From Pseudohongiella sp. (GTDB lineage: Bacteria > Pseudomonadota > Gammaproteobacteria > Pseudomonadales > Pseudohongiellaceae), in contig JAUSCD010000007.1 of assembly GCA_030651695.1 (NCBI GenBank), positions 1 through 44,975 on the forward strand: DNA of 44,975 nucleotides, written 5' to 3'. Of the stretch, positions 59-27,122 are shown piece by piece. The notes beneath the pieces were generated by a model. That model did no database searches. It was given only the letters and a program-made list of their open reading frames with translations, and had not been told where the DNA came from. The stretch's first letter is position 1. The number at the start of each line of letters is the position of its first letter. Both the position numbers and the translations under genes were made by a program.

Positions 59-3000
59 TTACATTGCTGCCAGCTCGGCAGCTTCTTCAATGTCTACGGC
101 AACGATACGGGACACGCCCGGCTCGTGCATGGTCACACCCAGCAACTGATTGGCAATTTCCATGGTCAGTTTGTTGTGTGTGATAAAAATAAACTGTACG
201 TGATCTGACATTTCTTTAACTAGGCGACCATAACGCGCCGTGTTGGCGTCGTCCAGCGGCGCGTCAACCTCATCCAGCATACAGAAAGGCGACGGGTTAA
301 GCCGGAAAATCGAGAACACCAGTGCAATCGCCGTCATCGCCTTCTCTCCACCGGACAACAGGTGGATGGTGCTGTTACGTTTGCCCGGCGGGCGCGCCAT
401 GATCGCTACACCGGTATCCAGCAGATCTTCGCCGGTCATGTCCAGATAGGCATGGCCGCCACCGAACACTTTGGGGAACAGCTCCTGCAGGCCGGCATTG
501 ATCTTGTCGAAGGTCTCTTTAAAGCGGGTGCGCGTTTCGCGGTCGATCTTGCGAATGGCGTTTTCCAGTGTGGCCAGCGCTTTGTCCAGATCTTCGTTCT
601 GGGCGTCCAGGTACGTTTTGCGCTCAGACTGCTGCGCGTACTCGTCAATGGCAGCGAGGTTGATGGCGCCGAGGCGTGCCACACGCTGGCCAATCAACTC
701 CAGCTCATCTTCACAGGACTGAGCCGTCAGTTCCGGCGGCAGCGTGCTTAAAACAGTTTCCAGATCATAACGGGCTTCACGCAGCTGATCGGATAACGCT
801 TCGCGCTTGACCAGATCACCTTCGGTTTTCAGCCGGCCTTCCATCAACTGCTCGCGCACGCCGGCGGCTTTGCGCTCAAAACCCATTCGCTGTTGCTCCA
901 GCGCACGCAGCTGGTGCTCGTTGGCATCGGCAGCGGCTTTGGCTTTATTCATGTGCTCTTCAACGTCCAGCCGTTTTTGCAGCAGCTGCTCCAGCTCCAT
1001 GCGCTTGCCTTCCAGCGGCATATCGGATTCGTTGAGCTGTTTCTCCAGCGATTCGATACGTTCACGCGCACGCTGCACCTGGGTGCTCATGCGGTTTTTG
1101 GCTTCGTCCATGGACGCTATCTGGGTGCGCAGCAACTGTTCGCGCAATCGCATCTGGTGACCCAGATCCTTGTCATGACGGGCTTTCTGGCGAATCTGAT
1201 CGAGCGACTGACGCAGCTCATCACGCTGTTGCAGCAGCGATTCGCGACGATCAACGTCCTGCTCCATGGTGTCGAGGGCGTTCTGCAGATTTTCGCGCGA
1301 GCGGGTAATGTTTTCCTGTTCCACTTCCAGCTGCTTTTGTAGCTCGTCCAGTTCAAACTGCAGACGTTGACGACGCTGGGTGGTCTGCTCTTCTTTCATG
1401 ATCTTGGCGCTGAGGCGCGATTTTAGCTCGCTGTACTCGCGGCTCATCTGGGCGATCTGACGCTGGATGGATTCGCGTTCGCTTTCCAGATCACGCAGGG
1501 CGTCGCGGCTTTGCTGCTGTTGTTCAACCAGTTCATCAACCTGGTTCTGCAGCAACTCCATCTCTTCAGACAGGCGCGTCATTTCGCCTTTGCGGGCAAG
1601 CATGCCTTCGCTGGCGTCGACGGATTTACGGATGCGGATCCAGTTGCGACCCAGCCACAGGCCTTGTCTGGTGACCACGGATTCGCCGGCGGCCAATGAG
1701 GCACGCAGTTTCAGGGCCTCTTCCAGCGTGTCGGCGGTGTGGATGCCTCGCAGGAGCGGAGCCAGATTTATGCTGCTGGTGATTCTGTCCGTGAGCGGGA
1801 AAGATGGGGACGGAGGAAGATTTGGGGACGAAGGAGCTTGCTCCTCCGTCCCCAAATCTTCCTCCGTCCCCATCACAGCCAATGCGCCCGACGGCAACGC
1901 CGACAGCACACCTGCCACTGAATCTATGTCTTCTACGCACAGTGCCTGCAGGGTATCACCCAGCACGGCCTCGACTGCCTGTTCCCAGCCGGCGGCAACT
2001 TTGATGTGTTCGCCCAGACGGCTGCGATCGGCCAGACCGTTGTCGGCCAGCCACTTGTTGAGTTTGTTGTCAGTCTGTCCCAAAGCAGCTTTCTGCAGCG
2101 CTTCAAGGGAGGCAAATTGGCCGGTCTGCCGCTGCAGTTTGCTGCGCGCCTGGTCCAGCTCCTGGCTCAGCTGCTGGCCACGGCTGCGTTCCTGTTCAAT
2201 ACGTGAGGCCATCTCGCTGTTGCGCGACTGCTGCTCATCCACATTTTCTTCCATCTGTGTAAGCTGGATGGACAGCTCCTCGATGACGTCCTGCTCAGGG
2301 TTTTCACCGAGTGCGGCACGCTCCTCGCGCAGACGACCACGGCGCTCGATGCCGCGTTCTACAATTTTTTCCAGTTGCTGGATACGCGACTGCTCTACTT
2401 CAGCAGTCTGCCGTGGCTCTTCCGAGCGGCGGGAAAACTCATCCCACTGCTGCTGCCAGTTCTGCATCTGCTCTTCGGCTTCTTCCAGCCGCACGGCCGA
2501 CTCTTCCTGCGTATGCTCGGCCATTTCCAGATCCGGCGTCAGCGCGTCCAGTTCGTTCTGCAGGGTTTCCAGCTTATAGACGTCTGTGTCCATTTCGGAC
2601 TGTGCGGATTTGAAGTTGCGCTGGTTCTCTTCGAGATCCTGACGCATCTGCTTCATGCGTTCAATGTGGAACTCAATGGCCTGTTCAATACGCGCAATAT
2701 CGCCGCCGATGCTGTAAAAACGCCCCTGCACCTCGGACAGCTGATCGTTCAGATCTGTCTGGTTTAGCAGCAACTGTTCATGTGACGCATCAAGTGCGCG
2801 CTGGTCGGCGATCACCGCTTCAATCTGGATTTCGAGCTCTTGAATGACGGCCTGTTTGGTGCGCACTTCATTGTCCAGAGCACGCCATCTCAACGCGTTA
2901 TATTGCGCATTAAGATCCCGCTCCTGAGCCTTGTATTCCTTGTATTTTTCAGCAGCCTGAGATTGCCTGTGCAGATGCTGTAACTGGCGCCCGAGCTCGT

Positions 3001-3595
3001 CACGGATATCAGTCAGACGCTCGAGGTTTTCGCGGGTGCGTTTGATGCGGTTTTCGGTATCCCGGCGGCGTTCCTTGTACTTGGAAATGCCAGCGGCCTC
3101 TTCGATAAATATTCGCAACTCTTCCGGCTTGGACTCGATCAGTCGCGATACCATGCCCTGCTCGATAATCGAGTATGAGCGCGGGCCCAGACCGGTACCG
3201 AGAAACAGGTCGGTAATGTCGCGGCGACGACACTTGGTGCCGTTGAGCATATAGATGTTTTCGCCATCGCGGGACACACGGCGCTTGATGGAGATTTCAC
3301 CGTATTTTGCATACTCGCCGGTGATGCGGTTATCAGTGTTGTCAAAGATCAGTTCAATACTGGCCTGACCCACCGGTTTGCGTCCGCCGGAACCGTTAAA
3401 AATAACGTCGGTCATGTTCTCGCCACGCAGGTTTTTGGCGGAACTTTCACCCATGACCCAGCGCACCGCATCGATGATGTTGGACTTGCCACACCCGTTG
3501 GGGCCAACCACCGCGCAGAGATTACTGGGGAAGCTCACCGTTGTGGGGTCCACAAAGGATTTAAAACCGGCGAGTTTGATGCTTTTCAGACGCAT
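59..3595 (-). CDS. smc: Chromosome segregation ATPase Smc
   Basis: Smc is the condensin-type ATPase that folds and helps segregate the chromosome; it works as a dimer with kleisin partners. The 1178-residue length is normal for the family. The N-terminal head carries a Walker A motif (GPNGCGKSN, near residue 32). Two long coiled-coil arms rich in Glu, Gln, Arg and Leu flank a hinge at about residues 500-660. The C-terminal head has the signature LLSGGEKAM and Walker B FCMLDEVDAPLDD. The ATG at 3595 is preceded by CAGGG and gives the conserved start MRLKSIKLAGFKSF. Unusually, the hinge contains about 24 residues (about 574-597) encoded entirely by a 72-bp palindromic repeat at 1803-1874, starting MGTEEDLGTEE and then Pro/Ser-rich. 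The frame stays open through it, so the protein is probably made with the insert. Confidence 0.97.
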   Translation of the reverse strand: MRLKSIKLAGFKSFVDPTTVSFPSNLCAVVGPNGCGKSNIIDAVRWVMGESSAKNLRGENMTDVIFNGSGGRKPVGQASIELIFDNTDNRITGEYAKYGEISIKRRVSRDGENIYMLNGTKCRRRDITDLFLGTGLGPRSYSIIEQGMVSRLIESKPEELRIFIEEAAGISKYKERRRDTENRIKRTRENLERLTDIRDELGRQLQHLHRQSQAAEKYKEYKAQERDLNAQYNALRWRALDNEVRTKQAVIQELEIQIEAVIADQRALDASHEQLLLNQTDLNDQLSEVQGRFYSIGGDIARIEQAIEFHIERMKQMRQDLEENQRNFKSAQSEMDTDVYKLETLQNELDALTPDLEMAEHTQEESAVRLEEAEEQMQNWQQQWDEFSRRSEEPRQTAEVEQSRIQQLEKIVERGIERRGRLREERAALGENPEQDVIEELSIQLTQMEENVDEQQSRNSEMASRIEQERSRGQQLSQELDQARSKLQRQTGQFASLEALQKAALGQTDNKLNKWLADNGLADRSRLGEHIKVAAGWEQAVEAVLGDTLQALCVEDIDSVAGVLSALPSGALAVMGTEEDLGTEEQAPSSPNLPPSPSFPLTDRITSSINLAPLLRGIHTADTLEEALKLRASLAAGESVVTRQGLWLGRNWIRIRKSVDASEGMLARKGEMTRLSEEMELLQNQVDELVEQQQQSRDALRDLESERESIQRQIAQMSREYSELKSRLSAKIMKEEQTTQRRQRLQFELDELQKQLEVEQENITRSRENLQNALDTMEQDVDRRESLLQQRDELRQSLDQIRQKARHDKDLGHQMRLREQLLRTQIASMDEAKNRMSTQVQRARERIESLEKQLNESDMPLEGKRMELEQLLQKRLDVEEHMNKAKAAADANEHQLRALEQQRMGFERKAAGVREQLMEGRLKTEGDLVKREALSDQLREARYDLETVLSTLPPELTAQSCEDELELIGQRVARLGAINLAAIDEYAQQSERKTYLDAQNEDLDKALATLENAIRKIDRETRTRFKETFDKINAGLQELFPKVFGGGHAYLDMTGEDLLDTGVAIMARPPGKRNSTIHLLSGGEKAMTAIALVFSIFRLNPSPFCMLDEVDAPLDDANTARYGRLVKEMSDHVQFIFITHNKLTMEIANQLLGVTMHEPGVSRIVAVDIEEAAELAAM
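1803..1874. repeat. 72-bp nested palindromic repeat inside smc
   Basis: Arms 1803-1837 and 1840-1874 (35 bp each, one mismatch) flank the dinucleotide TT. The inner part is the standard half-site, here with one A for G change in the left arm. It is bounded by AGATTT/AAATCT and then by an outer pair of half-sites GATGGGGACGGAGGA and its complement. The structure looks like one palindrome placed at the centre of an older one. Its length is a multiple of three and no stop codon arises in the smc frame. Confidence 0.95.
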
Positions 3596-7670: not shown

Positions 7671-7680
7671 TTGTTGGGTT

Positions 7681-7720
7681 GTTATGGGGACGGAGGAGCT
7701 GGCTCCTCCGTCCCCATAAC
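7681..7720. repeat. 40-bp palindromic repeat upstream of wecA
   Basis: Perfect 19-bp arms (7681-7699 and 7702-7720) flank TG. The conserved core half-site GGGGACGGAGGAGC is extended symmetrically by GTTAT on the left and ATAAC on the right. It ends 7 bp before the likely wecA start codon at 7728, so a transcript from the upstream gene would carry a strong hairpin just before translation starts. Confidence 0.95.
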
Positions 7721-7727
7721 AATCACC

Positions 7728-8786
7728 ATGGTTGAGAGCACGGATTTAGCGATCATGACCTTGTCAATTCTGATTTTTGCGTTTGCTCTCACAGGTCTGA
7801 CCCTGCTTGCGTTACGCCCGGTGGCGGCAAAAATCGGTCTGCTGGATATTCCGGGCGGTCGTAAAACGCATCAGTCTCCCACACCGCTGATTGGCGGCCT
7901 GGGTATTTATCTGGGCACGCTCTCGATCTGTCTGCTCTCCCCGGTTGTACTCGGTGACTACATGACACTGCTTACTGTATCGGGGCTGGTGTTATTTGTG
8001 GGTGTGCTGGATGATCTTTACGATGTCCGTCCGTCACTGCGTCTGTTCTTGCACTCGGTTGCGGTGACGGTGATGTGTATGGCCACCGGCATTTTTCTTG
8101 AAAGCCTCGGCAGCCTGTTTTTTGGCGGACCCGTTTTGATGGGAATATTGGCGCTGCCTGTCACCATCTTTGCGGTCGTGGGCGTCATCAATGCGGTCAA
8201 CATGAGTGATGGTCTTGACGGATTGTCTGGTGGCCTGGTGGTCATTGCACTGGTGATGTTATCGATAGCAGCCGTTGGTGCAGGGCAAAGCGCCATGCTG
8301 AGTTTTAATCAGATTCTGATCGTGTCCCTTCTGGCCTTTCTGGCTTTGAACTTCCGGGTGCTGTGGAAAAAAAGTGCTCTCATCTATCTGGGTGATGCGG
8401 GCAGCACGCTGCTTGGTTTTATTGTGGCGTGGCTGGTGATTGCAGCATCTCAGGGCGACAGCGCTTTTATTGCGCCGGTTTATGCGCTGTGGTTTCTGGC
8501 GGTCCCGTTGATGGATACCGTCAGCCTGCTTATTCGGCGCCCGTTACAAGGCCGCTCACCCTTTAACGCCGGCAGGGATCATTTGCACCATCGCCTGATG
8601 AGGCTCGGCTACGATGCCCATCAAAGTGTGCTGATCATTCATGGGGCCGCCATAGTGTTTGGCGTGATCGGGCTGGCGGGGCACTTTGCGGGGGCTCCTG
8701 AGGGGCTGATGTTTTTGTTGTTTATGGTTTGTTTTGCGCTGTATCTGCTGGCCTCGAAAATGGTGGGGACGGAGGAGTCCGGGTAA
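7728..8786 (+). CDS. wecA: WecA/MraY-family polyprenyl-phosphate sugar-1-phosphate transferase
   Basis: This integral membrane enzyme moves a sugar-1-phosphate (GlcNAc-1-P in WecA) from a UDP-sugar to undecaprenyl phosphate, starting O-antigen or other surface glycan synthesis. About 352 residues with roughly ten membrane segments fit the family. Visible motifs are the metal-binding VLDDLYD near residue 93, NMSDGLDGLSGG, YLGDAGSTLLG, and the late cytoplasmic motif HLHHRLM near residue 285 that marks the WecA branch. The start is set at ATG 7728 because an upstream in-frame TTG would read through the palindromic repeat; ATG 7755 is also possible. Neither has a clear ribosome binding site. The last six codons and the stop codon (GTEESG-stop) come from a half copy of the same repeat. 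Confidence 0.9.
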   Translation: MVESTDLAIMTLSILIFAFALTGLTLLALRPVAAKIGLLDIPGGRKTHQSPTPLIGGLGIYLGTLSICLLSPVVLGDYMTLLTVSGLVLFVGVLDDLYDVRPSLRLFLHSVAVTVMCMATGIFLESLGSLFFGGPVLMGILALPVTIFAVVGVINAVNMSDGLDGLSGGLVVIALVMLSIAAVGAGQSAMLSFNQILIVSLLAFLALNFRVLWKKSALIYLGDAGSTLLGFIVAWLVIAASQGDSAFIAPVYALWFLAVPLMDTVSLLIRRPLQGRSPFNAGRDHLHHRLMRLGYDAHQSVLIIHGAAIVFGVIGLAGHFAGAPEGLMFLLFMVCFALYLLASKMVGTEESG

Positions 8787-8830
8787 GGGATGGGGACGGA
8801 GGAGCTCGCTCCTCCGTCCCCATCTCTTAC
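8763..8830. repeat. Half repeat plus 48-bp palindrome between wecA and the nuclease gene
   Basis: A half-site (GTGGGGACGGAGGAG, 8763-8777) forms the end of wecA. A palindrome follows with arms 8783-8805 and 8808-8830 around TC, one mismatch. Its outer nine bases (GTAAGGGAT against ATCTCTTAC) are again symmetrical and specific to this copy. The ten bases CATCTCTTAC are then duplicated in tandem at 8821-8840. The palindrome lies between convergent genes and could act as a terminator hairpin in both directions. Confidence 0.92.
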
Positions 8831-8836
8831 CATCTC

Positions 8837-10321
8837 TTACCCCGGCACCACAATCTCCATCGGCCTGCCCGCTTTTTCTGCTAACGCTTTCAGTTCATCA
8901 CGCAAACTTTCACGTGCTCTGCGCTCGCCATGAATGATGCGTACATGCGTGGGCCATTTGTGCATGCGCCTGACAAAGTTGAGCAGGTCTTTTTGATCGG
9001 CGTGTGCACTGTAGCCACCTATGCTGCGGATCATGGCTCTGACTTCGATTGAAACACCGTCGATGGGGACGGAGGAGTAAAGGGGGACGGAGGAGCTTGC
9101 TCCTCCGTCCCCCTTTACTCCATTGCTGGCAATCTGCAGCAGACGATGCCCGGTGGTGCCACGTGCCTGGTAGCCCACAAAAAGAACGCAGTGCGCCGGA
9201 TCGTTCAGCATGGCTTTTAAATAATTCACGATACGCCCGCCCGCCGCCATGCCGCTGGCCGCCAACACAACCGCTGGTTGCCGCGTACGCGCCAGATGCG
9301 AGACCACTTTTTGATGGGCTTCATGGCTGTCGACAGTAATCAGATTTTCGAAGCTTAGAGGGTGCCGGCCAGCGCGAAGTCGTTGCTGCGCCTCGGCATC
9401 CCAAAATGGTTTGAGCTCGCGATAGACTTCATTAAATTTTGATGCCAGCGGCGAGTCCACGATTACCTGCAGCTTGCTCCAGTCGACGGTGTTGTCTGAC
9501 GGGCTTGTTTTTCTCGCCTCAAAAATCATACCTTCCAGCTCGTACAGAATTTCCTGTGTGCGTCCAATGCTGAAGGCGGGAATCATCACCGTGCCCTGAT
9601 TCTGCAAAGCATGTGTGATGACAGCATGCAGCCTTTTGCGACGTTCGCGACGATTCTCGTGCAGGCGGTTGCCGTAAGTACTTTCGATCACCAGCGCATC
9701 ACACCCATGCGGTGCTTTGGGCGCAGGCAAGAGCGGCGCATAAGGTGCGCCCAGATCTCCCGAGAATACAGTGAGGTGGTGGCGTTTTTCCTTTTTATAG
9801 AAGGTATCCACTTCTACATAAGCTGAACCCAGAATATGCCCTGCCCGCTGCAATCTGACTTTGAGCGTGATCTGATCATTATCAGTGACGGTATGCCACT
9901 GTTTGTATGGTATGGGAACCAGCAGATGTTTGACGGCGGCGAGGAACCGTGTGATCAAAGCCTCATCTTTGGTAAATCCGACCTTGAGCGCGTCTTCTAT
10001 CACCAGCGGCAACAACCGCGCGGAAGGTTCACTGCAGATAATCGGGCCTTTGAAGCCAGCAGCCACAAGGTATGGCAGGCGACCTATGTGGTCGATATGT
10101 ACATGTGTGACCAGCAGGGCCTGAATGGCACTGATATCAAACTCAATGCGATGCTGAGCGTGATGGTCTGATTTGGTGACGTCCTGGCCCTGAAACAGAC
10201 CGCAGTCGACAAGCAGATGGGTGTCGGGAGATGCCTCGTAACGATGGCAACTGCCGGTGACACCGCCGGCGGCGCCATGGTGTGTAAATTGCGGGTAAGC
10301 GTGTGTGGCGGGAAGTTCCAT
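8837..10321 (-). CDS. Beta-CASP metallo-beta-lactamase-fold RNase (CPSF/YSH1-type)
   Basis: The protein (494 residues) belongs to the metallo-beta-lactamase-fold nucleases with a beta-CASP domain, related to CPSF-73; bacterial members act on RNA. The metal motif HVHIDH is near residue 75. Other metal and beta-CASP signatures are FSGDLGAPY, VIESTYGNR, PAFSIGRTQEI, VDSPLA, VVLAASGMAAGGRI, FVGYQARGTTG, and SIGGYSAHADQ near the C-terminus. The start is taken at 10321: GGAGG lies about 11 bases upstream and MELPATHAYPQFTHHG is a natural family start. A longer reading would translate a palindromic repeat at 10398-10443. Residues about 401-420 are encoded by another repeat copy, inserted in frame between QIASNGV and GVSIEVRAMI. 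The target RNA is unknown. Confidence 0.92.
   Translation of the reverse strand: MELPATHAYPQFTHHGAAGGVTGSCHRYEASPDTHLLVDCGLFQGQDVTKSDHHAQHRIEFDISAIQALLVTHVHIDHIGRLPYLVAAGFKGPIICSEPSARLLPLVIEDALKVGFTKDEALITRFLAAVKHLLVPIPYKQWHTVTDNDQITLKVRLQRAGHILGSAYVEVDTFYKKEKRHHLTVFSGDLGAPYAPLLPAPKAPHGCDALVIESTYGNRLHENRRERRKRLHAVITHALQNQGTVMIPAFSIGRTQEILYELEGMIFEARKTSPSDNTVDWSKLQVIVDSPLASKFNEVYRELKPFWDAEAQQRLRAGRHPLSFENLITVDSHEAHQKVVSHLARTRQPAVVLAASGMAAGGRIVNYLKAMLNDPAHCVLFVGYQARGTTGHRLLQIASNGVKGDGGASSSVPLYSSVPIDGVSIEVRAMIRSIGGYSAHADQKDLLNFVRRMHKWPTHVRIIHGERRARESLRDELKALAEKAGRPMEIVVPG
9062..9121. repeat. Half repeat plus 48-bp palindrome inside the beta-CASP nuclease gene
   Basis: A half-site GATGGGGACGGAGGAG (9062-9077) runs into a palindrome with perfect 23-bp arms, 9074-9096 and 9099-9121, around TT. 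The symmetrical extension here is GGAGTAAAG/CTTTACTCC. The right side ends in CTCC, where the matching outer half-site would begin, so this also looks like a nested copy that has lost one outer half. The nuclease reading frame passes through it without a stop. Confidence 0.93.
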
Positions 10322-10397
10322 GATCCCTGTGTCCTCCTTGGTTTCGCTCCGGGTAGGCTCGTACGTGCCGGTGGGATGTTCCTCGGAACGGCGCTTT

Positions 10398-10443
10398 ACA
10401 TGGATGGGGACGGAGGAGCAAGCTCCTCCGTCCCCATCCATGT
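10398..10443. repeat. 46-bp palindromic repeat between the porin-like and nuclease genes
   Basis: Perfect 22-bp arms, 10398-10419 and 10422-10443, flank AA. The copy-specific extension is ACATGGAT/ATCCATGT around the common half-site GGGGACGGAGGAGC. It begins 2 bp after the stop codon of the porin-like gene and lies 77 bp upstream of the nuclease start, both on the minus strand. Confidence 0.95.
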
Positions 10444-27106: not shown

Positions 27107-27122
27107 GCTCCTCCGTCCCCAT
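27107..27122. repeat. Solitary half copy of the palindromic repeat
   Basis: GCTCCTCCGTCCCC plus AT lies 10 bp beyond the mtnC stop codon, between convergent genes. The other half of the palindrome is not detectable on its left (AACCGCGGAC). This is the only copy seen outside the first 10.5 kb. Confidence 0.8.

Follow-up and report, generated by a model that had tools for sequence, protein, structure and literature searches.

Copy-specific symmetric flanks at a dispersed palindromic repeat of Pseudohongiella and their possible origin by template switching

Positions 1 to 44,975 of contig JAUSCD010000007.1 (Pseudohongiella sp., GenBank assembly GCA_030651695.1; this stretch of 44,975 nucleotides (nt) is hereafter the window) carry copies of a short hairpin repeat that is dispersed through the genome of this aquatic bacterium and whose core is a 30-nt palindrome, GGGGACGGAGGAGNNNNCTCCTCCGTCCCC. 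Outside the core, most copies continue into flanks that mirror each other within a copy; this symmetry, reported at four copies in a preliminary description of the window, is real and is confirmed here over 48 copies. For the origin of the symmetric flanks, we give about an even chance to template-switch (snap-back) synthesis at a mobile hairpin, an element resembling REP sequences and terminal inverted repeats (TIRs).

The half-site of the core, the 12-mer GGGGACGGAGGA, has 191 exact matches in the window genome (G000, 3.86 Mb, whose contig C13 begins with the window), 98 of them forward and 93 reverse, and the reversed control sequence has none. The stretches examined cover 160 of these 191 half-sites, so about a sixth of them were unseen. 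With one mismatch per half-site allowed, 48 full palindromes were collected, four of them cut by a contig end, and their loops are 6-7 nt in total. Five lie in the window (1803, 7679, 8782, 9074 and 10398; Table 1). One base is changed in the inner core at 1803, and all five fold as full-length hairpins, that at 1803 with one mismatch (z-scores -9.0 to -13.0). Many contigs of this genome start or finish within or adjoining a palindrome copy (the window at 6-17, and also C3, C5, C8, C9, C14, C17, C18 and C26); the assembly seems to break at long perfect palindromes, and the longest copies may therefore be missing.

Among the 48 palindromes, the perfectly symmetric flank beyond the core averages 9.4 nt, as against 0.92 nt when flanks are swapped between copies, and a symmetry of at least 5 nt is reached by 35 of the 48 but by only 1.3% of the swapped flank pairs. 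Restricting the count to elements with 60-nt margins gives a similar picture (28 of 43, against 1.2% of swapped pairs). The flanks thus vary between copies and match within a copy. At three of the four copies named in the preliminary description (7679, 9074 and 10398) the mirrored flanks are perfect, and the fourth, at 8783, has one mismatch; its arms (8782-8831) are 96% complementary, perfectly so only for the 3 nt GAT/ATC adjoining the core. That description had also held that copies lacking symmetrical flanks would count against it, and such copies do occur, 13 of the 48 falling short of 5 nt. Its statement that ordinary target-site duplication, being direct, offers no explanation agrees with the flanks observed: no direct duplication across the core was seen in the listed flanks of the 48 copies, although no count was made.

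Places where relatives lack the repeat served as stand-ins for the ancestral state, all of them in other species; the relatives, designated here by G numbers, are 78-95% identical among themselves over the loci used. Eleven places were chosen initially, namely five at the 8783 site (in G001, G002, G005, G006 and G003, none of which has a core there), two in G012 and four beta-CASP linkers. In each of these 11 the longest inverted repeat measures 4-6 nt; the mean over 300 random 80-nt windows is 4.9 nt. Core variants are species-specific, and in the compared stretches of G003, G007, G012 and G014 (both directions counted) a full palindrome stands at the orthologous place in 51 of 74 comparisons, with no trace in 18. 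All 18 of the latter were added to the set, several being one place seen twice and two being the G012 places already counted, together with four other linkers; the 18 likewise have longest inverted repeats of 4-6 nt, and the four linkers of 4, 5, 8 and 4 nt. In sum, 30 of 31 unoccupied comparisons have an inverted repeat of at most 6 nt and the G012 beta-CASP linker has one of 8 nt, where random windows average 4.9-5.0 nt. With relatives standing in for the ancestor, the sites would have been non-palindromic before insertion, as expected for quasipalindrome template switching. One of the no-trace places (G003 L172) holds a decayed core-like sequence.

Support for one arm being native and the other new comes from a few sites. 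At 8783 the beta-CASP gene ends GTGCCGGGGTAAGAGAT within the right arm, with its stop codon where the relatives have theirs, so that the right arm looks native; the left arm, TCCGGGTAAGGGAT, resembles the inverse CCGGGGTAAGAGAT with one base missing and one changed (judged by eye). For the 9074 copy, which lies within the beta-CASP gene at the site first described as 9062, removal of 36 nt (the 30-nt core and CTTTAC) gave the best summed alignment score with eight relatives (2146, compared with 2067 for the core alone and 2121 for 39 nt), and the alignments were then ungapped with G001, G002 and G006 and had one gap with G003 and G014. One arm is thus probably native here as well, judging from these alignments. 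A G014 copy with 16-nt flanks (L164:5461-5500) stands where G012 is empty, and the last 5 nt of its right arm, TTACA, read as the conserved end of the SMC gene. In the SMC hinge copy of G001 (L154:8457-8482), one arm matches the coding sequence of G003 and G014.

Nested arrays and direct repeats also occur around the cores. In the stretches examined of the window genome, with one mismatch allowed, there are 30 simple palindromes, 28 single half-sites, nine balanced nested arrays (one at a contig end) and 17 unbalanced ones (eight at contig ends). An outer half-core is present on one side only at 9062 (9065-9076) and at 8783 (8765-8776), and the former may be native coding DNA. The preliminary description took nested copies to show insertion into older copies; that is one possibility. 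Several outer half-cores lack a partner, an outcome also to be expected from repeated copying of the template or from partial loss, and they fit these processes better than clean insertion into an older copy. Direct repeats are also found beside the cores, for example the two tandem units at 8822-8841 in the window. Of 179 elements, 45 have the 6-mer that adjoins the core again as a direct repeat no more than 30 nt away, on one side or both; for 6-mers taken 40 nt away the figure is 6 of 179. In some cases the repeated flank includes the first bases of the core. These tandem repeats are mostly in relatives (in G003, 8 on the right and 8 on the left of 11 elements; in G002, 5 and 7 of 41). Between the glycosyltransferase-4 and beta-CASP genes of G003 (L162), CCCCGGCACCTGAG or a close form of it stands about four times in tandem with no core.

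Template switching could produce these features as follows. The strand carrying the core would fold back on itself, so that its 3' end forms part of the base-paired hairpin foot, beside flank that has already been copied. A polymerase would then extend the 3' end along that flank, which would place an inverted copy of one flank on the other side of the core. Synthesis would afterwards switch back to the ordinary template, perhaps by way of a brief stretch of shared sequence, and repeated rounds or slippage could leave tandem repeats of flank plus core edge and some of the unpaired outer half-cores. The polymerase step, its timing and the return at short homology are what we infer.

Several observations weigh against this reading. 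The relatives share only about 70% identity with the window genome over the stretch compared. In the beta-CASP alignments, the four relatives of the second clade, that of G003 and G014, score 2-4 points higher with 39 nt removed than with 36. The rest of the right arm of the G014 copy, beyond TTACA, is absent from G012, and the G001 hinge arm is a weak case because it is unmatched in the nearer G002, G005 and G011. At two places that are empty in G012, neither flank arm is present, one opposite G003 L162:4878 (the SMC end, the same place as the G014 L164:5461 copy) and the other opposite both G003 L165:8538 and G007 L168:12537. The suggestion in the preliminary description that insertion copies neighbouring DNA in inverted form, which is also the pattern of one native and one inverted arm expected of quasipalindromes, has support at 8783 and 9062, in part at the G014 copy and weakly in G001, but none at these two places. 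The window genome itself has few tandem repeats, 4 on the right and 3 on the left of 43 elements (controls 1 and 0). Symmetry is also unevenly distributed. Counted with elements less than 60 nt from a locus end omitted, the elements that reach at least 5 nt are 6 of 10 in G001, 9 of 11 in G003, 12 of 15 in G007, 11 of 22 in G014, 1 of 2 in G012, 1 of 6 in G011, 1 of 41 in G002, 2 of 13 in G005, 0 of 3 in G006, 0 of 10 in G009 and 0 of 3 in G010. The stems of G002 are nevertheless as long as those of the window genome (mean 14.3 and 13.8 pairs, with 16-18 in most copies of the GATC family of G002), so a strong hairpin alone is not sufficient, and a purely passive effect of hairpin strength is weakened as a cause. 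Loss of the hairpin nuclease SbcCD as the cause was considered and rejected, since all but one of 12 genomes, among them the window genome, have an SbcD homologue (G013 has no match). Finally, the share of swapped flank pairs that match over at least 5 nt is 37% in G003, 21% in G007, 14% in G001 and 10% in G014, so that in these genomes the element may carry part of the flank with it.

That last point leads to a different explanation, in which the flanks belong to the mobile unit: the hairpin would be longer than the core, with an outer stem that travels with it and differs between lineages of copies. The first flank nucleotides do recur between copies in G003, G007 and G014 (for example aagaat, gtaaa and ttaat), and the non-native arms of G003 and G007 at the two G012-empty places would be expected if flanks arrive with the element. 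We nonetheless find a travelling flank doubtful, since 8783 has one arm of native appearance and 9062 probably does too, and since swapped flanks match in only 1.2-1.3% of pairs in the window genome, so that nearly every copy there has its own flank. It is unlikely, but worth setting out, that insertion itself makes the inverted copy. In such a scheme the transposase would join the 5' end of a single-stranded hairpin to a cut target. The hairpin's free 3' end would lie paired next to the flank of the target, and a polymerase would extend it along this flank before the second joining. Each insertion would thereby leave the flank, the core and the inverse of the flank in that order, an inverted target duplication whose extension length varies from copy to copy and a signature unlike the direct duplication of ordinary transposons.

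The preliminary description had offered a further origin, insertion into the centre (loop) of pre-existing palindromes, for instance terminator hairpins or older copies. In keeping with it, the inner core is central in the nine balanced arrays, some flanks are A-tract/T-tract pairs like those of terminators, and some orthologous sites of G003 and G007 share a flank but not a core. This sharing is only suggestive of flanks ancestral to the site (permutation P 0.10 with five pairs for G003/G007 and P 0.20 with seven pairs for G003/G014, the 12 pairs having been entered by hand from the comparison and other pairs left out); in the G003, G007, G012 and G014 stretches, loop distance at orthologous places is 0.465, about that of random between-species pairs (0.493), while different sites within a species are closer (0.355). 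However, the unoccupied places resemble random DNA in their inverted repeats, so that palindromic targets find no support at the places compared. In the balanced arrays, moreover, 5-14 nt of the outer copy stand to either side of the inner core, where whole loops measure 6-7 nt (n=48), and the partnerless outer half-cores do not suit it. We therefore regard insertion into existing palindromes as very unlikely. Least credence is given to selection for hairpin strength, acting through transcription termination or RNA stability, as what keeps or builds the symmetry after insertion. Certain copies do lie right past stop codons or between convergent frames (7679 and 8782), and some flanks are poly-A/poly-T, but copies within coding frames, where a terminator would be harmful, are symmetric too (21 nt in SMC, 9 nt in the beta-CASP gene, 20 nt in a GTPase gene and 5 nt in a RapA homologue), and the copies of G002 are mostly without symmetry.

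A candidate for the enzyme that moves the element is a Y1 transposase. The window genome has two Y1_Tnp genes (Pfam Y1_Tnp, above cut-off). Genes of the short type (frames of 237-261 amino acids) have full palindromes in their locus in five of six genomes (G000, G001, G002, G003 and G011, but not G007), whereas those of the long type (326-345 amino acids; the one of the window genome has a DnaA-like tail) have palindromes at the locus in none of 12. The short protein scores 77.1 bits with the NCBIfam model REP_Tyr_transpos, below its cut-off of 80. Based on the gene neighbourhoods, we infer that the element is probably moved by this short, RAYT-type transposase, whose gene is flanked by the same palindromes. 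In G009 (L272, about 907-2958), a short Y1 frame of 162 amino acids lies between 22-nt inverted repeats containing GGGGACGGAGG; elsewhere the flanks of the Y1 gene are complete palindromes. G014 has 22 palindromes in the stretches counted, yet only a long-type Y1 gene was found there.

Several described repeat systems share features with this element. TIRYT genes, which encode Y1 transposases, are flanked by GGGGWSAS inverted repeats; some TIRs are self-complementary and some make up moderately abundant families (PMC3733652; PMC6006769). The present core starts GGGGAC/GGGGTC, close to that motif, and the repeat resembles these TIRs in its dispersed copies, some of them dimers and some self-complementary, and in its link to Y1 transposase genes (PMC3733652; PMC6006769). 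It differs in reading GGGGWCGG, in forming complete palindromes, in its copy-specific symmetric flanks and in its species-specific cores; the core begins GGGGACGG (GGGGTCGG in G001), which agrees with GGGGWSAS at seven of eight letters. The TIRYT portions consulted in the same two papers make no mention of symmetric flanks of single copies (PMC3733652; PMC6006769). As with REP/REPIN sequences and RAYTs, short palindromes flank a Y1_Tnp (HUH) gene, here the short one, but the base of the present hairpin continues into variable symmetric flanks, and no constant GTAG or GTGG tetranucleotide was seen at the hairpin foot when the flanks of the 48 copies were inspected by eye. CGTC-tagged REPs and Rickettsia palindromic elements (RPE) are described as inserting in frame in housekeeping genes (PMC3733652). 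In-frame palindromes occur in housekeeping genes here too; unlike the unpaired tag of CGTC REPs, the CGTC of the present element is part of the paired 3' arm. As a mechanism, template switching at inverted repeats is established (PMC8794818; PMC7202029; PMC8604942), and quasipalindrome mutations similarly involve inverted copying of one arm beside a hairpin (PMC8794818). The present case would differ in that template switching would act at many dispersed copies of a mobile palindrome and add host flank to them. Judging by titles and the starts of abstracts, the literature listed contains no apparent case in which a mobile palindrome acquires host flank through template switching, and no joint treatment of REPs, symmetric flanks and template switching among the matches listed. 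The literature matches for GGGGACGGAGG are unrelated, and those for GGGGACAGA look so among the matches listed.

The remaining features of the window concern the host genes (Table 1). The beta-CASP protein also gave matches to the Cas14 and aCPSF1 models, both far under their cut-offs. At the intergenic place of the 10398 copy, a palindrome is present in eight of the 11 relatives shown (G013 and G020 are without one, and the G011 match is uninformative). The SMC hinge linker (1803-1874 in the window, L108-L118 in relatives) is a recurrent place of in-frame insertion, with cores that differ between species: an in-frame palindrome is present in eight of 11 readable relatives and absent from G010, G012 and G013. 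In G008 the palindrome of this linker lies beside a run of N, and the linker search of G006 returned no match. Further in-frame copies lie in genes for a RapA homologue and a YlqF-like GTPase (putative names, given without a family search). Two linkers of RapA homologues (L136-L138 and L149) hold palindromes in G001, G002, G006 and G011, and a RapA homologue gene of the window genome (L075, contig C33, 12515-12593) contains two opposed half-cores across 79 nt with a long interior.

Table 1. Palindrome copies, half-cores and host genes located in the window
Feature	Position	Strand	Details
Half-core at contig start	6..17	-	Half-site search
Gene for chromosome segregation protein SMC	59..3595	-	Interrupted in frame by the 1803 copy
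Balanced nested copy in the hinge region of the SMC gene, in frame	1803..1874		35-nt arms, one mismatch
Palindrome copy	7679..7722 (core 7686-7715)		Flanks TTGTTAT/ATAACAA, 7 nt, perfect
Outer half-core without right-hand partner	8765..8776	+	Half-site search, array analysis
Left arm TCCGGGTAAGGGAT	8778..8791	+	Apparent inverted copy of the 3' end of the beta-CASP gene, stop codon included; aligned by eye
Palindrome copy	8782..8831 (core 8792-8821)		Flanks GGTAAGGGAT/ATCTCTTACC, one mismatch
Two tandem units of ATCTCTTACC	8822..8841		Second unit holds the beta-CASP stop codon (8837-8839, minus strand)
Frame for beta-CASP metallo-beta-lactamase-fold protein	8837..10441	-	Interrupted in frame by the 9074 copy
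Half-core-like sequence, one side only	9065..9076	+	Protein ..SSVPIDG.., in G003 ..NSVLIDG..
Palindrome copy in the beta-CASP gene, in frame	9074..9121 (core 9083-9112)		Flanks GGAGTAAAG/CTTTACTCC, 9 nt, perfect
Palindrome copy	10398..10443 (core 10406-10435)		Flanks ACATGGAT/ATCCATGT, 8 nt, perfect
Single half-core, far from other copies	27109..27120	-	Half-site search

If one flank is indeed copied in inverted form at each copy, this would be a mobile palindrome that lengthens as it incorporates host sequence, stop codons and coding DNA included. The copies would then record template switching at hairpins naturally and many times over, and would help to explain how long perfect palindromes originate and are maintained. 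They might also reveal an insertion signature, the inverted target duplication, that was not seen described for Y1 transposases in the parts of the literature consulted. Because the SMC hinge, the RapA linkers and gene ends are occupied by species-specific cores in many species of the genus, the element also bears on the turnover of repeats inside essential proteins.

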